A stretch of 64,000 nt of DNA, taken from contig NZ_CP130701.1 of the NCBI RefSeq assembly GCF_030553075.1, positions 3,162,001 to 3,226,000 of the forward strand, read 5' to 3'. Both the position numbers and the translations under genes were made by a program. Below, in pieces: positions 56,064 to 64,000 of the stretch. Source of the DNA: Halomonas sp. I5-271120. Its GTDB lineage: Bacteria; Pseudomonadota; Gammaproteobacteria; Pseudomonadales; Halomonadaceae. Under the pieces are notes generated by a model. That model did not search any database. It was not told the DNA's origin and saw only the letters and a list, made by a program, of their open reading frames with translations. Position 1 is the stretch's first letter. Every line of letters starts with the position of its first letter.

Positions 56064-56444
56064 ATGAAGAAACAAGGCATGAAACACATCAAGGGCATGC
56101 AGTCGGGGCAGGGCGGTTTTACCCTGATTGAGCTGCTGATCGTCGTGGCGATTATCGGCGTGTTGGCGGCGATTGCGATTCCGCAGTATCAGAACTATTT
56201 AACTCGTTCGGCCAACAGTGCATGTGAAAGCGATGCGAGAGCCTATGCAACTGCTGTTGCAGCGGAAAGGGCATCTGGTAATGAAGATCCAGCAGTGGAT
56301 ACAGTGTTTTCCGACGGTGGTGAGGCATGTTCTTCACTTGGTGTTGGTGCAAGCGATACGTCTGTTGTCGAAGCTTCTGCTGCAAGTCCAGGTGATGATA
56401 CCTCAATCTCTGTAAATATCGGTATGGCCCAAGTTAGTACTTAA
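56064..56444 (+). CDS. pilA: Type IV major pilin-like protein
   Basis: Encodes 126 residues. The prepilin leader is followed by the class III signal [20 protein letters not shown], with cleavage after Gly18 and Glu at mature position 5, then [15 protein letters not shown]. Two cysteines (CESDARA and EACSSLG) can form the small disulfide-bonded loop. The mature part is short (about 108 residues), Ser/Ala-rich, acidic, and its codons are visibly A/T-richer than the neighbours, consistent with exchange or rapid variation. Serines near the C-terminus are candidate glycan sites. It has its own strong terminator. Confidence 0.93.
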
Positions 56445-56520
56445 CTCTAGTACTTTATTACACAGGAAAATAGGGCATAGGGCTCGGGGCTAACCCAGTT
56501 CTTCACTTAGAATGAATCAA

Positions 56521-56556
56521 CCAACGGCCGGCAGAAATGCCGGCCGTTGGTGTTTT
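56521..56556 (+). terminator. Rho-independent terminator after pilA
   Basis: CCAACGGCCGGCA and TGCCGGCCGTTGG form a perfect 13-bp stem with GAAA loop followed by TGTTTT. Confidence 0.93.
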
Positions 56557-56632
56557 GTAGTCTTGATGTGTTTTTGTACAGAGTTCCCATTCACCTATTG
56601 TTGGCACCGGGTGCTGTGTTTGGAGACCTGAT

Positions 56633-58096
56633 ATGCCGGAAACGGGACTGCGCCGCTTGGCACGGGGTTGGTTACCTTTGGCCTTGTGCTTATGCCTTAA
56701 CGCCGGGATGCTGTTGCCCTGGCAGCTAGGGTCGGTGGGCCTATTCGAAGCGCAACGTTGGGTCCAATGGTTAAGCCTTGCGCTGGCTGTGGGCCTTGCG
56801 GGCTTCCTACATCGGCAAGCCTTCTATTCGGTGATAGTCGAGCAAACCGCCACTCGTTGGCACCGTGCCGTGCTGCTGAGTAGCGGTCTGCTGATTGTGT
56901 TTGCTCTATGGCGAGCCCCCTATAGTGGGCTCGCGCTTCTGGATTTGGCCTATTTGATGTTGCTGGGGATAGTGGCCGTAATCGTCACGATATCGGCCAG
57001 GCATTGGCCGCGGCTGGGGTGGGCACTGCTGGGCGGGCTATTGGCGCTCTTGATGCTGATCTATGCCTTCCTGGCCATCGACCATATCTCTCTGGTGTGG
57101 GACTTTGCCAATCGCCATGACTTCGGGCCAGGCTTCGACAACGTGCGTTTCTTCGCCGATGTGGCAGTGGGTGTGATGCCGCTAGCGCTACTCTATGTTT
57201 TGGCGCGCCCGAGGCCATCACGGGTAGCAGCGTCGCTGTGCTTGGCTCCGCTGACGGTCTGGTGGTGGCTGTTGTGGGTCTCCGAAAGCCGGGCGGCGCT
57301 GCTGGGACTCGTCGTGGGTGCACTCTGCGCGCTCTGGCTATTCGGGCGTGCCGCGCGTTGGCCGGCGACGCTGCTAGGCGTTTCCGGTGTTCTGGGGCTA
57401 GTGGGCTGGTGGATCCTAAATCCCATCGGCGGCGCTGGAGCTGAAGATGTCTTCGTGCGCGATATCACCTCCAGCAGTGGGCGCCTTGCGCTATGGGCTG
57501 ACGCGTTGCGCTATGCCTTCGAGCACTTTCCCGTGGGCATTGGTCCCATGGGCTTTGCCGGCGATGGCAATCTGCGCGGCGCCCACGCCCATAACTTCTT
57601 CCTGAACACCGCGGCGGAGTGGGGCCTGACGCTGGCGCTGCTGTTGATGGCGCTGCTGCTCTTCGGCTGCCGAGTGATCATTCGCCGGGCGCGGGCCATG
57701 CCCGATCAGGATAAGCCCGTGTTCGCTTGTCTTGTGATGGCCTTCGTGGGCGTGATGGTCAATGCCCAGTTCGCCGGTTCGCATATTATCCCGCTTAGTG
57801 CACTGGTGATGGTGCTGGTGGTTGGCCTTGTGTTTGGCTATCGCTCCGCTGAAGAGCTGCCACCCTCTGCGCCTGCGTTCCCGGTACCTCTTGGAGCCAC
57901 CCTGCTCTGGGCGGCGCTGATGCTGATGCTGGCGTATCTGCTCTATGCAGGGCTGGAACTCTACTGGCTCTCCGTTGATTCCACGCGGGTCTGCTTTCAG
58001 GAACAGGGGCGCATTTACCTCTACCCGCGTTTCTGGGCTCAAGGGCGGCTGGAGTGTATGCAGATGGTTGAGCCAGATAATTGGTTGTTCTGGTGA
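56633..58096 (+). CDS. O-antigen ligase/PglL-like membrane oligosaccharyltransferase
   Basis: Encodes 487 residues with about 11-12 membrane segments. The Wzy_C/O-antigen ligase domain is recognisable by LWVSESRAALLGLVVGALC, SGRLALWADALRYAFEHFPV, GIGPMGFAG and AHAHNFFLNTAAEWGL, with the conserved His loop. Enzymes of this fold polymerise or transfer lipid-linked glycans; the PilO/TfpO and PglL subgroup O-glycosylates pilins and is often encoded next to pilA. Its position 190 bases after pilA makes pilin glycosylation the best inference. A terminal aromatic tail ends in NWLFW. Lipopolysaccharide ligase is the alternative. Confidence 0.8.
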   Translation: MPETGLRRLARGWLPLALCLCLNAGMLLPWQLGSVGLFEAQRWVQWLSLALAVGLAGFLHRQAFYSVIVEQTATRWHRAVLLSSGLLIVFALWRAPYSGLALLDLAYLMLLGIVAVIVTISARHWPRLGWALLGGLLALLMLIYAFLAIDHISLVWDFANRHDFGPGFDNVRFFADVAVGVMPLALLYVLARPRPSRVAASLCLAPLTVWWWLLWVSESRAALLGLVVGALCALWLFGRAARWPATLLGVSGVLGLVGWWILNPIGGAGAEDVFVRDITSSSGRLALWADALRYAFEHFPVGIGPMGFAGDGNLRGAHAHNFFLNTAAEWGLTLALLLMALLLFGCRVIIRRARAMPDQDKPVFACLVMAFVGVMVNAQFAGSHIIPLSALVMVLVVGLVFGYRSAEELPPSAPAFPVPLGATLLWAALMLMLAYLLYAGLELYWLSVDSTRVCFQEQGRIYLYPRFWAQGRLECMQMVEPDNWLFW

Positions 58097-58469: not shown

Positions 58470-59615
58470 TCAATACGCCACTACCCGATCTCGCCCACCG
58501 GCCTTGGCGCGATACAGCGCTTCGTCGGCACGGGCGTAGAGTACATCGAAGTCATAGTCTTCCTGGCCGTGGGTGGTAGTCAGGCCGAGGCTGACGGTGA
58601 GGCGAATGATGTCTTCGTTGTGCAGGACCACCATGTTGTCGATCCCCTGGTGAAGCCTCTCGCAGAGCTCGTAAGCGCCTTGACTATTGGTGTCCGGCAT
58701 CAGCAGGCAGAATTCCTCGCCACCGATACGTGCGGCTACATCGGACTCCCGCACCAGTTGTTTCAGCGTTCTGGCCAGCTGTTGCAGCACCTTGTCGCCG
58801 AAGGGATGACCGTACTGATCATTGATGCGCTTGAAGTGATCAATATCGATGATGGCCAGGCTGATCGAGGCGCCACTGCGCCTCCCAAGCGCTAAAGTGT
58901 GCCTGGCCTTGGCCATGGCGGCGCGGCGATTCTCCAGGCCGGTCAGTTCATCCGTGACCGAGAGCTGCTCGAGCGCACTTTGTTGGCCAAGAATTTTCTC
59001 GATGGCCACAAGAAGGCCCAGGATGACCACCAGCACCAGGGCGCCCAGGGCGATGATGATCTGTGTCATCACCGACATGATGTGCTGCTGCTCGGTGGCG
59101 CCCCGCATCATCAACGTATGCAACTCGCTATAGATGTAGGCCAGACTGTTGTCGATATCTTCCGTCAGGTCGTGCAGAGCGTTGAGCTGATGGGGGTGCT
59201 CAAGCACATCCTGTGCGATGGCGGTTGCCTGCTGAAGCAGGGTATCCAGGTGAGCAAACTCCGCGATGATGTGCCGGGTATCTTGCGTCGTCAGTTGGCT
59301 ACGCTGCAGGTACTGTTCGATGGTCATCTGGCGGCTATTGATAATCCAGAGAGCCTGGAGCAATTGCTGTTGGTGCAGGGGATGAGGGTGGTCCAGCAAG
59401 TTGAGGCTTGATTGGCGCAGCGCCTCACCATCGTGCTGTGCCCGCACGATTTCGCTGGAAAAGGCGATGTAGTCGGCATCCAGCTGTTTTTGGGCATAGC
59501 TGGCATAGAACGTGATGGCAATCACCGCCAACCCCACCAACACGAGGAAGCCCACCCAGACCAGCAGTCGTCGATGCGAGAACCCCAGGGCGTGCCGGGC
59601 CTTGATGGTCGCCAT
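58470..59615 (-). CDS. Membrane-anchored diguanylate cyclase (GGDEF)
   Basis: Encodes about 381 residues. Two membrane helices (LLVWVGFLVLVGLAVIAITF and IIIALGALVLVVILGLLVAI) flank a periplasmic helical sensor of about 140 residues. The GGDEF domain has LTGLENRRAAM, IDIDHFKRINDQYGHPFGD and the active-site RIGGEEF. An inhibitory I-site RESD lies five residues before it. It should make c-di-GMP in response to a periplasmic signal. The start was set at ATG 59615, six bases after the neighbouring gene ends; ribosome binding site support is weak, and ATG 59657 is an alternative overlapping that gene. Confidence 0.88.
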   Translation of the reverse strand: MATIKARHALGFSHRRLLVWVGFLVLVGLAVIAITFYASYAQKQLDADYIAFSSEIVRAQHDGEALRQSSLNLLDHPHPLHQQQLLQALWIINSRQMTIEQYLQRSQLTTQDTRHIIAEFAHLDTLLQQATAIAQDVLEHPHQLNALHDLTEDIDNSLAYIYSELHTLMMRGATEQQHIMSVMTQIIIALGALVLVVILGLLVAIEKILGQQSALEQLSVTDELTGLENRRAAMAKARHTLALGRRSGASISLAIIDIDHFKRINDQYGHPFGDKVLQQLARTLKQLVRESDVAARIGGEEFCLLMPDTNSQGAYELCERLHQGIDNMVVLHNEDIIRLTVSLGLTTTHGQEDYDFDVLYARADEALYRAKAGGRDRVVAY

Positions 59616-59620
59616 GGCGT

Positions 59621-60211
59621 TCAGCTCGCGTTGATCGTCGCCAGCGACCAGATCCACTTGTCGAAGGGCTCCTGCCCCTCGAGTACGGCGTCTTCATCGG
59701 CTGGCACCACCAGCATCAAGGGCCCGCGCTGGCTCTGAGGGATCGGTGCGCCGTCGAAGCGGGTGACGAGCAGGTAGTCCTTTTCCTTCCGCTGCGCTTG
59801 TTTGAGGAAGATGGAGTAGTTGTCGACGGCAATCAGGCGTAGCCGTGCGGCATCGCCCAGCGCATAGGCGGCGAGCAAGTCTTCCAGCAGTACGCCACTG
59901 TAGACGCCCGCCGGCCCCTCCGGGTGCTGCAGTGTTGCCTCATGCAAGGGCAGGCGCTCGATGTCGGAAAGCGACAGCTGCTCTCGGTGATCGGCGGCCT
60001 GAAGGGTGAGGATCGGCGTGGTGTCCTGGGAAGGAGCGAGCACGCTTGGGGTTAGCTCGGCGGCCTGCAAACAGGTGCTGAGCAGCAGTCCCGTCAGCAG
60101 GCCCGCCCCCCAGCGCGCCTTGCGGGTAGAGCATCCGCCTGTCTCTTGAGGCGTCGCTTCTGGTGTGGCCATTGGAACGATCCAGGACAGGAGCTCGCTG
60201 AACATCATCAT
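59621..60211 (-). CDS. Exported molybdopterin-oxidoreductase-fold protein, candidate sensor partner of the cyclase
   Basis: Encodes 196 residues. AGGGA precedes the ATG. A signal segment (ARWGAGLLTGLLLSTCLQAAE) is followed by a domain like the sulfite-oxidase molybdopterin-binding fold: LSLSDIERLPLHEATLQ, GVYSGVLLEDLLAAYAL, YLLVTRFDGAPIP, RGPLMLVVPADE and FDKWIWSLATI. The domain is too short to be a full oxidoreductase and lacks the cofactor cysteine, so a binding or sensing role is more likely. It is adjacent to the diguanylate cyclase gene in a tight two-gene unit, an arrangement seen repeatedly for this family. Confidence 0.7.
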   Translation of the reverse strand: MMMFSELLSWIVPMATPEATPQETGGCSTRKARWGAGLLTGLLLSTCLQAAELTPSVLAPSQDTTPILTLQAADHREQLSLSDIERLPLHEATLQHPEGPAGVYSGVLLEDLLAAYALGDAARLRLIAVDNYSIFLKQAQRKEKDYLLVTRFDGAPIPQSQRGPLMLVVPADEDAVLEGQEPFDKWIWSLATINAS

Positions 60212-61092: not shown

Positions 61093-63270
61093 ATGAACGG
61101 ACGATATTCCATGACAAACCTCTCCGCCCCAGTTTTCCTCTGGCCGTTGTCGCGCTCTCACCGCTCCGCCTCGCGCTGGCTTGCTGGCTCACTGCTGGCC
61201 GCATCGATAGTGCAGGCCGCCCCCATTCTGGCTCAAGAAGCTCCAGCGGGCAGTATGACCCTCACTGAGGCCGTCCGTCAGGCTGTTAATGGCAATCCTG
61301 AGGTGCAGGTTGCCTGGCATGCCTTCCAGGCTTCACGAAATGAAGTCGACGTGGCGCGTGGGGGCTATTTCCCCAGTGTGGATGCCAGTGCGGGCATTGG
61401 TCGCGAAGCGGTGTCCGGTGACGGTGAAGGAAGCTATAGCACCGATTTCGTCGAACTGACCCTGACACAGATGCTGTATGACGGCTTCTCGACACAGAAT
61501 GACGTGGCGCGCCTCGACCAGGCCAAGCAGGTACGCTTTTTTGAGCTGCTTGATGTTAGTGAGGGGGTGGCGTTTGACGTCTTCCGTGCCTACGAGGACG
61601 TGCGCCGCTATCGTGAGCTGGTGTCGCTGGCACAGGATAACTATGCCAAGCACCTACGTGTCTATCGCCAAATCGAGGAGCGCGTGACGTCAGGCTCAGG
61701 CCGGCGGGTCGATCTGGAACAGATCAGCGGTCGTCTGTCACTGGCAGAATCTAACCTGATGACCGAGGCGGCTAACCTGCACGACGTCAGTGCCCGTTTC
61801 CAGCGGCTGGTGGGAGAAATCCCTTCGTCTACGTTGGCACCGCCTCCAGCGTTGGGTCAGGCGTTGCCAGCCTCATTGCAGAATGCTCTGAACATGGCTT
61901 ACCAGGGCAACCCAGGTTTTCATGCCGCCATCAAGAATATCGAGGCGACGCGTAATGAGCTGGCCGGAACGCGCTCGGCCTTCCAGCCGCGGCTCGAGTT
62001 TCGCGCGCGGACGGGGCGTGACAACGAACGGTCGGGCGTGGCCCGTCTCGATGGCAGTTCTGCTGAGCTGGTGGCCAGCATGAATCTGTACCGAGGCGGC
62101 AGCGATCAGGCGCGCTTCCGTCAGATCAGCGACGAGGTCGAACGCAGCATCAGCCTGCGCGAACAGGAGTGCGTTGGCCTTCGCCAGACCACGTCGATCG
62201 CCTATCAGTCTGCCCGGCGGCTCGAAGAGCAACAGCGCTATCTGAACCAGCACCGGCAGCATATCGACCGGGTGCGTGGCGCCTATCAGCAGCAGTTCGA
62301 TATTGGCCAGCGGACTCTGCTGGACGTCCTGGATAGCGAAAACGAGTACTTCGATGCCAGCCGTGCCTATGCCAATGCCCTCTATGATCAGCGCATTGCC
62401 GAAGCGGAGACCCTGGCCGCCATGGGGGCGCTGCTCACTCAGCTCGAGGTGCGCCGTGAGGGGTTGCCATCTCTTGGTGAAATCGGCAGCGAGGGCTTCA
62501 TGGTCGACGCCGAGACGATCTGCCCGGCACAAGGGCCGGCAAGCCTTACGCTTGATGACCTGACGGCCGGCCTCGATATTCCCAAGGCCGCTTCGCCGGA
62601 TATCGTGCTCTCGGCGGATGCGCTGTTCGCGCCTGGAAGCGCCGAGCTGTCTGCCCAGGCGAGGGAAGAACTTGCGGGCCTGGCAGCGGAGCTCAAGGCC
62701 CGCAACGATCTGGCCCGCGTCGTCATTGCTGGCCATGCCGACAGTTCCGGCAGCGACGCCATCAATGAGCCGCTGTCGCAAGCGAGAGCCGATCAGGTGG
62801 CCGGTTACCTGGCGACCCGCGGTGTAGATAGAGAGCTGCTGGTGGCGCGCGGCTTCGGTTCTCGCCAGCCGGTGGCGACGAATGATACGGCCGAGGGGCG
62901 GCGCGCGAACCGCCGTGTCGAGATCACATTTGAGACGTTGGACTTCGGCTTCGATGCCTCGACGATGCGCCCGGGGTCACTTTCCGCTGCCTACGGCGAC
63001 TCCCTTGGAGCGGCCTCTACCATGCCGGAGGCTGATGCCCAATCCACTTATCTCCAAGTGGCGGCACTGAGCGCTGCGGATCGGGCACGGGCCCTCAAGG
63101 AGGAGCTGACGGTGCGTCTTGCCAGTGAGCTGCGGGTACTCAGTGACGGCGACCTGCATCGCGTTCAGGTAGGCCCGGTGGCCTTGAAGGAGCTCCCTTC
63201 GCTTCAGGCTCGTCTGCAAGCATTGGGTTACACCGGGGCCTTTGTCGTGCAACCGGAACAGCCAAGCTGA
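61093..63270 (+). CDS. TolC-family outer-membrane channel fused to OmpA and SPOR peptidoglycan-binding domains
   Basis: Encodes 725 residues. A signal peptide (ASRWLAGSLLAASIVQAAPILA) is followed by a TolC/LapE-type channel of two OEP repeats (about residues 55-460; MTLTEAVRQAVNGNPEVQV, LTQMLYDGFSTQNDVARL, LLDVLDSENEYFDASRAY). Residues about 502-614 form an OmpA C-terminal domain (ALFAPGSAELSAQAREEL, GHADSSGSDAINEPLSQARA). The last 70 residues form a SPOR-like domain (YLQVAALSAADRARALKEEL, VLSDGDLHRVQVGPV). The channel exports large adhesins with a type I ABC transporter, encoded next. Two wall-binding domains on one channel are unusual. ATG 61111 is an alternative start. Confidence 0.85.
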   Translation: MNGRYSMTNLSAPVFLWPLSRSHRSASRWLAGSLLAASIVQAAPILAQEAPAGSMTLTEAVRQAVNGNPEVQVAWHAFQASRNEVDVARGGYFPSVDASAGIGREAVSGDGEGSYSTDFVELTLTQMLYDGFSTQNDVARLDQAKQVRFFELLDVSEGVAFDVFRAYEDVRRYRELVSLAQDNYAKHLRVYRQIEERVTSGSGRRVDLEQISGRLSLAESNLMTEAANLHDVSARFQRLVGEIPSSTLAPPPALGQALPASLQNALNMAYQGNPGFHAAIKNIEATRNELAGTRSAFQPRLEFRARTGRDNERSGVARLDGSSAELVASMNLYRGGSDQARFRQISDEVERSISLREQECVGLRQTTSIAYQSARRLEEQQRYLNQHRQHIDRVRGAYQQQFDIGQRTLLDVLDSENEYFDASRAYANALYDQRIAEAETLAAMGALLTQLEVRREGLPSLGEIGSEGFMVDAETICPAQGPASLTLDDLTAGLDIPKAASPDIVLSADALFAPGSAELSAQAREELAGLAAELKARNDLARVVIAGHADSSGSDAINEPLSQARADQVAGYLATRGVDRELLVARGFGSRQPVATNDTAEGRRANRRVEITFETLDFGFDASTMRPGSLSAAYGDSLGAASTMPEADAQSTYLQVAALSAADRARALKEELTVRLASELRVLSDGDLHRVQVGPVALKELPSLQARLQALGYTGAFVVQPEQPS

Positions 63271-63370: not shown

Positions 63371-64000
63371 TTGACCAGTGATGCCAAAAAGGCCAAGGAC
63401 GCCTCCCGCGAGCTTCCTGCTCAAGACGCGCCGCCTCCCCAGGACGACCTGCTGGCATGCCTGCAGGTGGTGGCTCGGGCTCATGACCGGGAAACCAATC
63501 CAGAAACGCTGACGGCGGGTCTGCCGCTGGAAGAGGGGCGCCTCACGCCCTCGGTGTTCGCGCGCGCCGCCAAGCGCGCCGGCCTATCGACGCGCCATAC
63601 GCGATGTCGGCTGGTCCAGCTGAACCCGTCACTGTTCCCGGTAGTGCTGCTCCTCGAGCCAATGCGTGCTTGTGTGCTGCTGTCGTTGAACGTCACTGAG
63701 CGTCAAGCCAAGGTGATTTTTCCTGAACTTGGCGAGTCGGCGGTCGATGTGTCGCTGGATGAGCTGCAGGCTCGCTACAGTGGCCGCGCCCTCTATGCTC
63801 GCCCGGCCTTTCGGTTTGATGCTCAGAGCCCGCAGCGCGGCGCTACCCGACACGGCCACTGGTTCTGGGATGTGATTCGTGAGAATCGTCGCGTCTATCG
63901 TGATGTTCTGATTGGTTCGGCGATGATCAACCTCTTCGCCATTGCCATGCCGCTGTTTGTGATGAACGTCTATGATCGCGTGGTTCCGAACCACGCTGCC
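63371..64000 (+). CDS. Type I secretion system ABC transporter, LapB type (N-terminal part)
   Basis: The frame opens with TTG 63371 (CGAGG upstream; an in-frame stop lies at 63353) and runs off the window after 210 codons. The N-terminal C39-like domain (DDLLACLQVVARAHDRE, LTAGLPLEEGRLTPSVFARA, KRAGLSTRHTRCRL) lacks the catalytic Cys and His, as in LapB/HlyB transporters of RTX adhesins. The first membrane segments follow (DVLIGSAMINLFAIAMPLF, VMNVYDRVVPN, the family signature). The ATPase part would lie beyond the window. It is 100 bases after the TolC-fusion gene; together they should export a large surface protein. Confidence 0.88.
   Translation, partial: MTSDAKKAKDASRELPAQDAPPPQDDLLACLQVVARAHDRETNPETLTAGLPLEEGRLTPSVFARAAKRAGLSTRHTRCRLVQLNPSLFPVVLLLEPMRACVLLSLNVTERQAKVIFPELGESAVDVSLDELQARYSGRALYARPAFRFDAQSPQRGATRHGHWFWDVIRENRRVYRDVLIGSAMINLFAIAMPLFVMNVYDRVVPNHAA

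Follow-up and report, generated by a model that had tools for sequence, protein, structure and literature searches.

In the Lap system of Pseudomonas fluorescens, a channel, an LssB-type ABC transporter, an HlyD adaptor, a retention-module adhesin, LapD and LapG are found together in one locus, and LapE retains the adhesin until LapG cleaves it (PMC6890996). In the Bpf/Agg system of Shewanella oneidensis, the OmpA-like protein SO4321 is encoded by a separate gene beside the AggA exporter, and its mutation affects biofilm (PMC4523816). The authors of that work considered the role of SO4321 to be unknown and proposed translocation of BpfD and BpfG. OmpA domains bind diaminopimelate (DAP) through an Asp and an Arg (PMC6572160). 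SPOR domains are represented by that of RlpA, in which Q270 contacts glycan and forms the binding site together with a basic patch of arginines, R302, R309 and R311; according to the same source, all known SPOR proteins have roles in division or morphogenesis (PMC6895207).

The gene described here is a single uninterrupted ORF in the window, which is the whole stretch of 64,000 nucleotides analysed. Its features are as follows.

61093..63270, + strand: whole gene, TolC/LapE-type channel with OmpA-like and SPOR domains, 725 aa
61252..62442, + strand: TolC-family channel, residues 54-450 (OEP x2, TIGR01844)
62485..62589, + strand: first linker, residues 465-499 (model mostly of low confidence)
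62623..62913, + strand: OmpA-like peptidoglycan-binding domain, residues 511-607 (Pfam)
62740-62742, + strand: D550, putative DAP-binding residue, by domain homology and spacing
62785-62787, + strand: R565, putative DAP-binding residue, by domain homology and spacing
62941..63039, + strand: second linker, residues 617-649 (low model confidence; highest dN/dS of five regions)
63049..63252, + strand: SPOR domain, RlpA-like, residues 653-720 (Pfam, fold match)
63055-63057, + strand: Q655, equivalent of RlpA Q270
63160-63162, + strand: R690, equivalent of RlpA R309

The channel thus bears C-terminal OmpA and SPOR domains, whereas LapE of P. fluorescens has, to our knowledge, neither. The contrast with Shewanella drawn in an earlier note on this DNA is also borne out, in that the OmpA-like SO4321 is a separate gene there (PMC4523816) and the OmpA domain is fused to the channel here. 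The presence of TolC, OmpA and SPOR on one chain, as first described in that note, was confirmed by Pfam and NCBIfam domain searches, with all three over cut-off. OEP was matched in two stretches (E 8.7e-48), and the channel part is of the TIGR01844 type_I_sec_TolC family (270 bits against a cut-off of 225.15). OmpA (PF00691, residues 511-607) was matched at E 1.3e-20 with 74 bits against a cut-off of 27.2, and SPOR (PF05036, residues 653-720) significantly at E 3.2e-5 with 24.6 bits against 21. In the predicted structure of the whole chain (46 sequences, mean pLDDT 70, pTM 0.51), the channel has the TolC pattern of long helices and four strands, the barrel strands being of low confidence. The model places an OmpA-like domain at 504-615, a low-confidence linker at 617-649 and a SPOR-like domain at 652-719 (block means 84-90); residues 465-472 and 480-499 of the first linker fall below a confidence of 50. 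Scans for promoters and terminators in the gene yielded counts no higher than expected by chance, and a repeat scan of the gene found nothing notable.

Modelled alone (27 sequences, mean pLDDT 75.7), the SPOR piece is predicted to form strand-helix-strand-strand-helix-strand. The top PDB fold match of this model was 6i09, the P. aeruginosa RlpA SPOR domain with denuded glycan (E 8.9e-4, TM 0.71/0.78), followed by 6i05 and then CwlC 1x60, while FtsN 1uta ranked 17th (E 0.073). Three other SPOR proteins were found in the genome: RlpA and two that we call FtsN-like and DedD-like on the basis of NCBIfam matches below cut-off. A profile of the channel SPOR scored them at 76, 19 and 3 bits, respectively. 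By far the closest is RlpA: across 70 residues, the domain shares 46% identity with the SPOR domain of the RlpA encoded in the same genome (E 2e-13, computed against a very small set). The rlpA gene is located between mltB and a dacA-like gene. Judging from these comparisons, RlpA is the most likely donor of the domain. RlpA is a septal lytic transglycosylase with a DPBB domain, whereas here the SPOR domain rides on a secretion channel.

A chance SPOR score, or a fusion created by a frameshift, might be suspected from the modest Pfam score of 24.6 against 21 and from a sequence-only PDB search with the SPOR piece, in which an RlpA chain was the best match at a non-significant E of 0.069. We consider such an artefact extremely improbable given the fold match, the recurrence of the domain, which is intact in 44 loci of the family and 46% identical to that of the organism's own RlpA, and the constraint upon it. 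The source genome is a near relative of Onishia taeanensis. The chain is also intact in relatives at 98, 91 and 76% identity (the first two being Onishia taeanensis strains USBA-857 and BH539, respectively), so it is not a product of assembly error or frameshift.

The glutamine equivalent to Q270 is present in all 44 three-domain copies and all 14 TolC-SPOR copies of the family (58/58). The R309 equivalent, Arg690, is found in 40/44 and 14/14 of these (54/58). At the position of R311, the three-domain copies have Gln (35/44), Arg (7/44) or Leu (2/44) and the TolC-SPOR copies Gln throughout (14/14); at the position of R302, a printed alignment shows a residue other than Arg for the window protein. 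The R309 equivalent is therefore the one arginine of the RlpA patch that is retained. With the Gln kept and most of the basic-patch arginines gone, the central contact has been retained and the basic patch reduced.

The genes that follow, most of them beyond the window, are listed below.

63371..64000, + strand: start of a T1SS ABC transporter, LssB family, with a C39-like N-terminal domain; 729 aa, continuing past the window end
G000:C1 3227557-3228990, beyond the window: HlyD
G000:C1 3228995-3229615, beyond the window: LuxR-type regulator
G000:C1 3229707-3236180, beyond the window: adhesin, 2157 aa
G000:C1 3236702-3238606, opposite strand: LapD
G000:C1 3238650-3239354, opposite strand: LapG

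By its gene content, the locus is a complete Lap system headed by the channel gene, in keeping with the adhesin-secretion setting proposed earlier. The ABC transporter matches TIGR03375 (935 bits, cut-off 693) and the HlyD adaptor TIGR01843 (424 bits, cut-off 209). The adhesin has a retention module (retention_LapA NF033682, 106.5 bits, cut-off 50), a body of cadherin-like/VCBS repeats and a T1SS C-terminal signal (TIGR03661, 65.4 bits, cut-off 17.6). LapD and LapG were matched over cut-off by Pfam LapD_MoxY_N (124.8 bits) and Peptidase_C93 (52.3 bits), and their NCBIfam equivalogs gave matches that are near end-to-end yet under cut-off. P0122 has a TAAG stretch, a putative LapG site, towards the end of its retention module region. 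Fourteen further loci that carry SPOR were read with long flanks; ABC and HlyD ORFs adjoin the channel in 14/14 of them, those of L301 being broken, and a retention-module adhesin is present in 12/14, none having been found within the stretch taken for L294 and L298.

Several neighbouring genes were also observed. The LuxR/NarL-type regulator gene (L144:3996-4616) is flanked by hlyD and the adhesin gene and shares their orientation. A GGDEF diguanylate cyclase (window 58470-59657, - strand) is located slightly upstream of the Lap locus and could feed LapD. Window 56064-58096 (+ strand) encodes a pilin-like protein (N_methyl) and then a Wzy_C/O-antigen-ligase-family protein, presumably a pilin with its glycosylating ligase. 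In one relative (L301:9120-12811), the ABC and HlyD genes are split into several frames beside an intact TolC-OmpA-SPOR gene.

Relatives at 1e-70 occur in at least 150 of 275 Halomonadaceae genomes, among the matches listed. Six other genomes of the genus or species were searched at E 1e-70, and the gene was found in four and not in two, one of the latter genomes being 88% complete. The best 120 of 4262 homologues, a sample skewed to SPOR bearers, all have OEP and OmpA labels, with a SPOR label in 48/120; among the 72 without it, six show SPOR by eye (P0002, P0005, P0015, P0062, P0089 and P0102). Fusions annotated as "TolC family outer membrane protein" or "agglutination protein" share the first two parts of the chain. 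In order to survey the family, 96 loci of TolC-OmpA type among the matches listed were read and 95 resolved (L226 was left out), with SPOR called by our own profile made from labelled members; a few genomes contribute two loci, and L001 and L117 are from the same species. SPOR is intact in 44 of the 95 and absent or broken in 51, comprising 28 with a tail of at least 24 residues but no intact SPOR and 23 with a shorter tail. A further 46 family loci consisted of 31 with TolC alone (including L020), 14 with TolC-SPOR and no OmpA, and one TolC-OmpA; thus, of the 45 without OmpA, 14 are TolC-SPOR and 31 have neither domain. Curated Pfam upheld SPOR in both TolC-SPOR proteins tested (L103, 31 bits; L245, 46.7 bits), and in the three-domain relative L208 the domain scored 20.1 bits, just under cut-off.

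Outside the family, 10 of 20 order-level loci are TolC-OmpA fusions and 10 are bare channels, and TolC-OmpA was found in 5 of 7 class-level loci. In L016, an order-level locus read apart, the chain stops soon past OmpA. The TolC-OmpA fusion by itself is therefore ordinary and occurs in other families too. No SPOR fusion was seen in the 20 order-level or 7 class-level loci, so that among the loci read SPOR on this channel is confined to Halomonadaceae; these sets are part of the listed matches and limited to close relatives (E 1e-60 or 1e-70 and better), and remoter SPOR fusions may still exist. A literature search, with most subscription papers outside its reach, found no TolC-OmpA-SPOR or TolC-SPOR protein described. 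The term "OmpA" is absent from the main text of PMC12153261 and PMC6890996 and from the first 300,000 of the 747,799 characters of PMC8277102. The three-domain order is thus common in Halomonadaceae (44/95), one of two things that, according to the earlier note, would together speak against its proposal; the second, a prior description, was not found in the literature searched.

Replacement of a separate ompA gene by the fusion was examined in 20 order-level stretches without a fused OmpA match, several of which are shortened by contig ends. An adjacent ompA gene was found in just two (L281 and L285; own profile, 15 bits), which argues against such replacement as a general rule. Both are small OmpA-domain genes overlapping tolC (L281:6400-7032 and L285:8339-8986), with no ABC or HlyD matches within the stretch taken. 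In L286, a TolC match falls in a very long frame that runs opposite a retention-module ORF; this frame was discounted as probably antisense.

On a TolC-OmpA tree (outgroup of 4 rows out of 11 intended), the SPOR state requires 13 changes, at least nine of them forced by starred branches, and the four architectures intermingle on a tree built from the channel alone. Both trees come from quick searches and have long branches joining one another, so the change counts are rough. Neither tree separates gain from loss, and loss is therefore argued from remnants. In Onishia niordana (L003, also listed as L039), a frameshift splits SPOR off the rest of the chain, the cut-off part being 62% identical to the window protein and the rest 87%. 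In L136 the SPOR sequence itself is frameshifted, in L178 an in-frame stop falls close to the SPOR start with the remainder still readable, and in L291, a TolC-SPOR relative, SPOR lies in another frame. In L120, L174, L180, L188 and L190, a SPOR-like tail ends after an apparent internal deletion; each of these tails is at the floor (~0.0005) of a comparison with shuffled tails, in which the other 23 of the 28 tails tested gave values of 0.036 to 0.99. This brings the visible broken or deleted SPOR copies to nine, although the independence of all nine is not a given. In six bare-channel relatives of the TolC-SPOR group (L013, L256, L257, L258, L262 and L266), the tail was judged by eye to have a YLQ-like or similar stretch and then an end resembling SPOR, and these tails look like internal SPOR deletions.

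The nine disrupted or deleted copies and the 13 changes of state are what would be expected if SPOR were an acquired tail of little function that is drifting and being discarded. Such a vestige is, however, difficult to reconcile with the Gln kept in 58/58 copies, with the occurrence of SPOR whether or not the channel carries OmpA, or with its dN/dS, and we think it unlikely. Median dN/dS was 0.052 for TolC (18 pairs), 0.088 for the first linker (17), 0.085 for OmpA (17) and 0.146 for SPOR (17 usable pairs), against 0.339 for the linker ahead of SPOR (16), in a sample of 18 pairs that favours constraint, since the pairs were hand-picked for intact SPOR and some share members. SPOR is an accessory trait that selection has retained in many species and that others have lost, with the TolC-OmpA core staying. 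Its absence or breakage in 51/95 TolC-OmpA loci indicates that the exporter is able to do without it.

Two functions of the SPOR domain were weighed against this background. As the earlier note suggested, it may gather the exporter where the cell divides and so at the new pole, such that the adhesin is shown where cells part. The closest solved relative, the SPOR domain of RlpA, binds denuded glycan, a material concentrated at the septum (PMC6895207), and the invariant Gln and the constraint on the domain agree with this. On the other hand, the adjoining OmpA domain ought to anchor the channel at any point of the wall, SPOR has been lost repeatedly and its basic patch is reduced, and we regard such placement as possible, with some reservation. 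A more elaborate version is offered tentatively: SPOR would have been recruited, most likely from RlpA, stripped glycan at the septum would capture the exporter for OmpA to lock in place, and adhesion would be concentrated at new poles. The wall chemistry of cell division would then set where a giant adhesin is exported, and lineages would toggle this spatial control by gaining or losing the 70-residue module. Alternatively, because a TolC-type channel has to cross the wall, SPOR may steer channel assembly to sites of wall opening, where OmpA then holds it, with the position in the cell being incidental. The same RlpA kinship and Gln count in favour of this second function, but SPOR-less members of the family are common and we find it rather doubtful.

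The reading that we favour, and hold to be fairly probable as a whole, is that OmpA ties an adhesin-loaded channel to the wall and SPOR adds affinity for stripped glycan. In this reading, the protein serves a Lap-type type 1 secretion system as its LapE-type outer-membrane channel, through which a giant LapA-like adhesin is exported and in which it is then retained by its N-terminal retention module. With the adhesin remaining in the channel, the pull on the cell would run through the channel, and since a Lap adhesin is held in LapE until LapG cuts it, a wall-tied channel would be a sensible mechanical anchor. The OmpA domain may bind the wall and bear this load. Its putative DAP-binding residues are separated by the same spacing of 15 as D271/R286 of Acinetobacter baumannii OmpA, the equivalence relying on domain homology and this spacing, and the presence of both in 95/95 family TolC-OmpA loci lends weight to the earlier idea of a channel fixed to the wall. 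In the 10 outside-family fusions aligned, Arg is kept in 10/10 and Asp in 8/10. The RlpA-related SPOR domain would give an extra grip on peptide-stripped glycan strands, as suggested by its fold, conserved Gln and purifying selection. TolC-family channels are trimers, and if this channel is trimeric like TolC it would have three of each domain. That small ompA genes adjoin tolC in L281 and L285 would fit a link between OmpA and the channel outside the fusion, and the effect of SO4321 on biofilm in Shewanella would likewise fit a wall anchor. Against the favoured reading we count the reduced basic patch, the missing or broken SPOR in 51/95 loci, the 31/45 loci with neither domain, the Asp replaced in 2/10 outside-family fusions and the different role, translocation of BpfD and BpfG, that was proposed for SO4321.

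A channel fused to wall-binding domains would be a simple way to pass the pull of an adhesin to something firm. It also points to a function for the OmpA-like gene of Shewanella, hitherto unexplained. SPOR on a secretion channel would widen the roles of this domain beyond division and morphogenesis (PMC6895207), and it makes the spatial control of secretion a testable matter.
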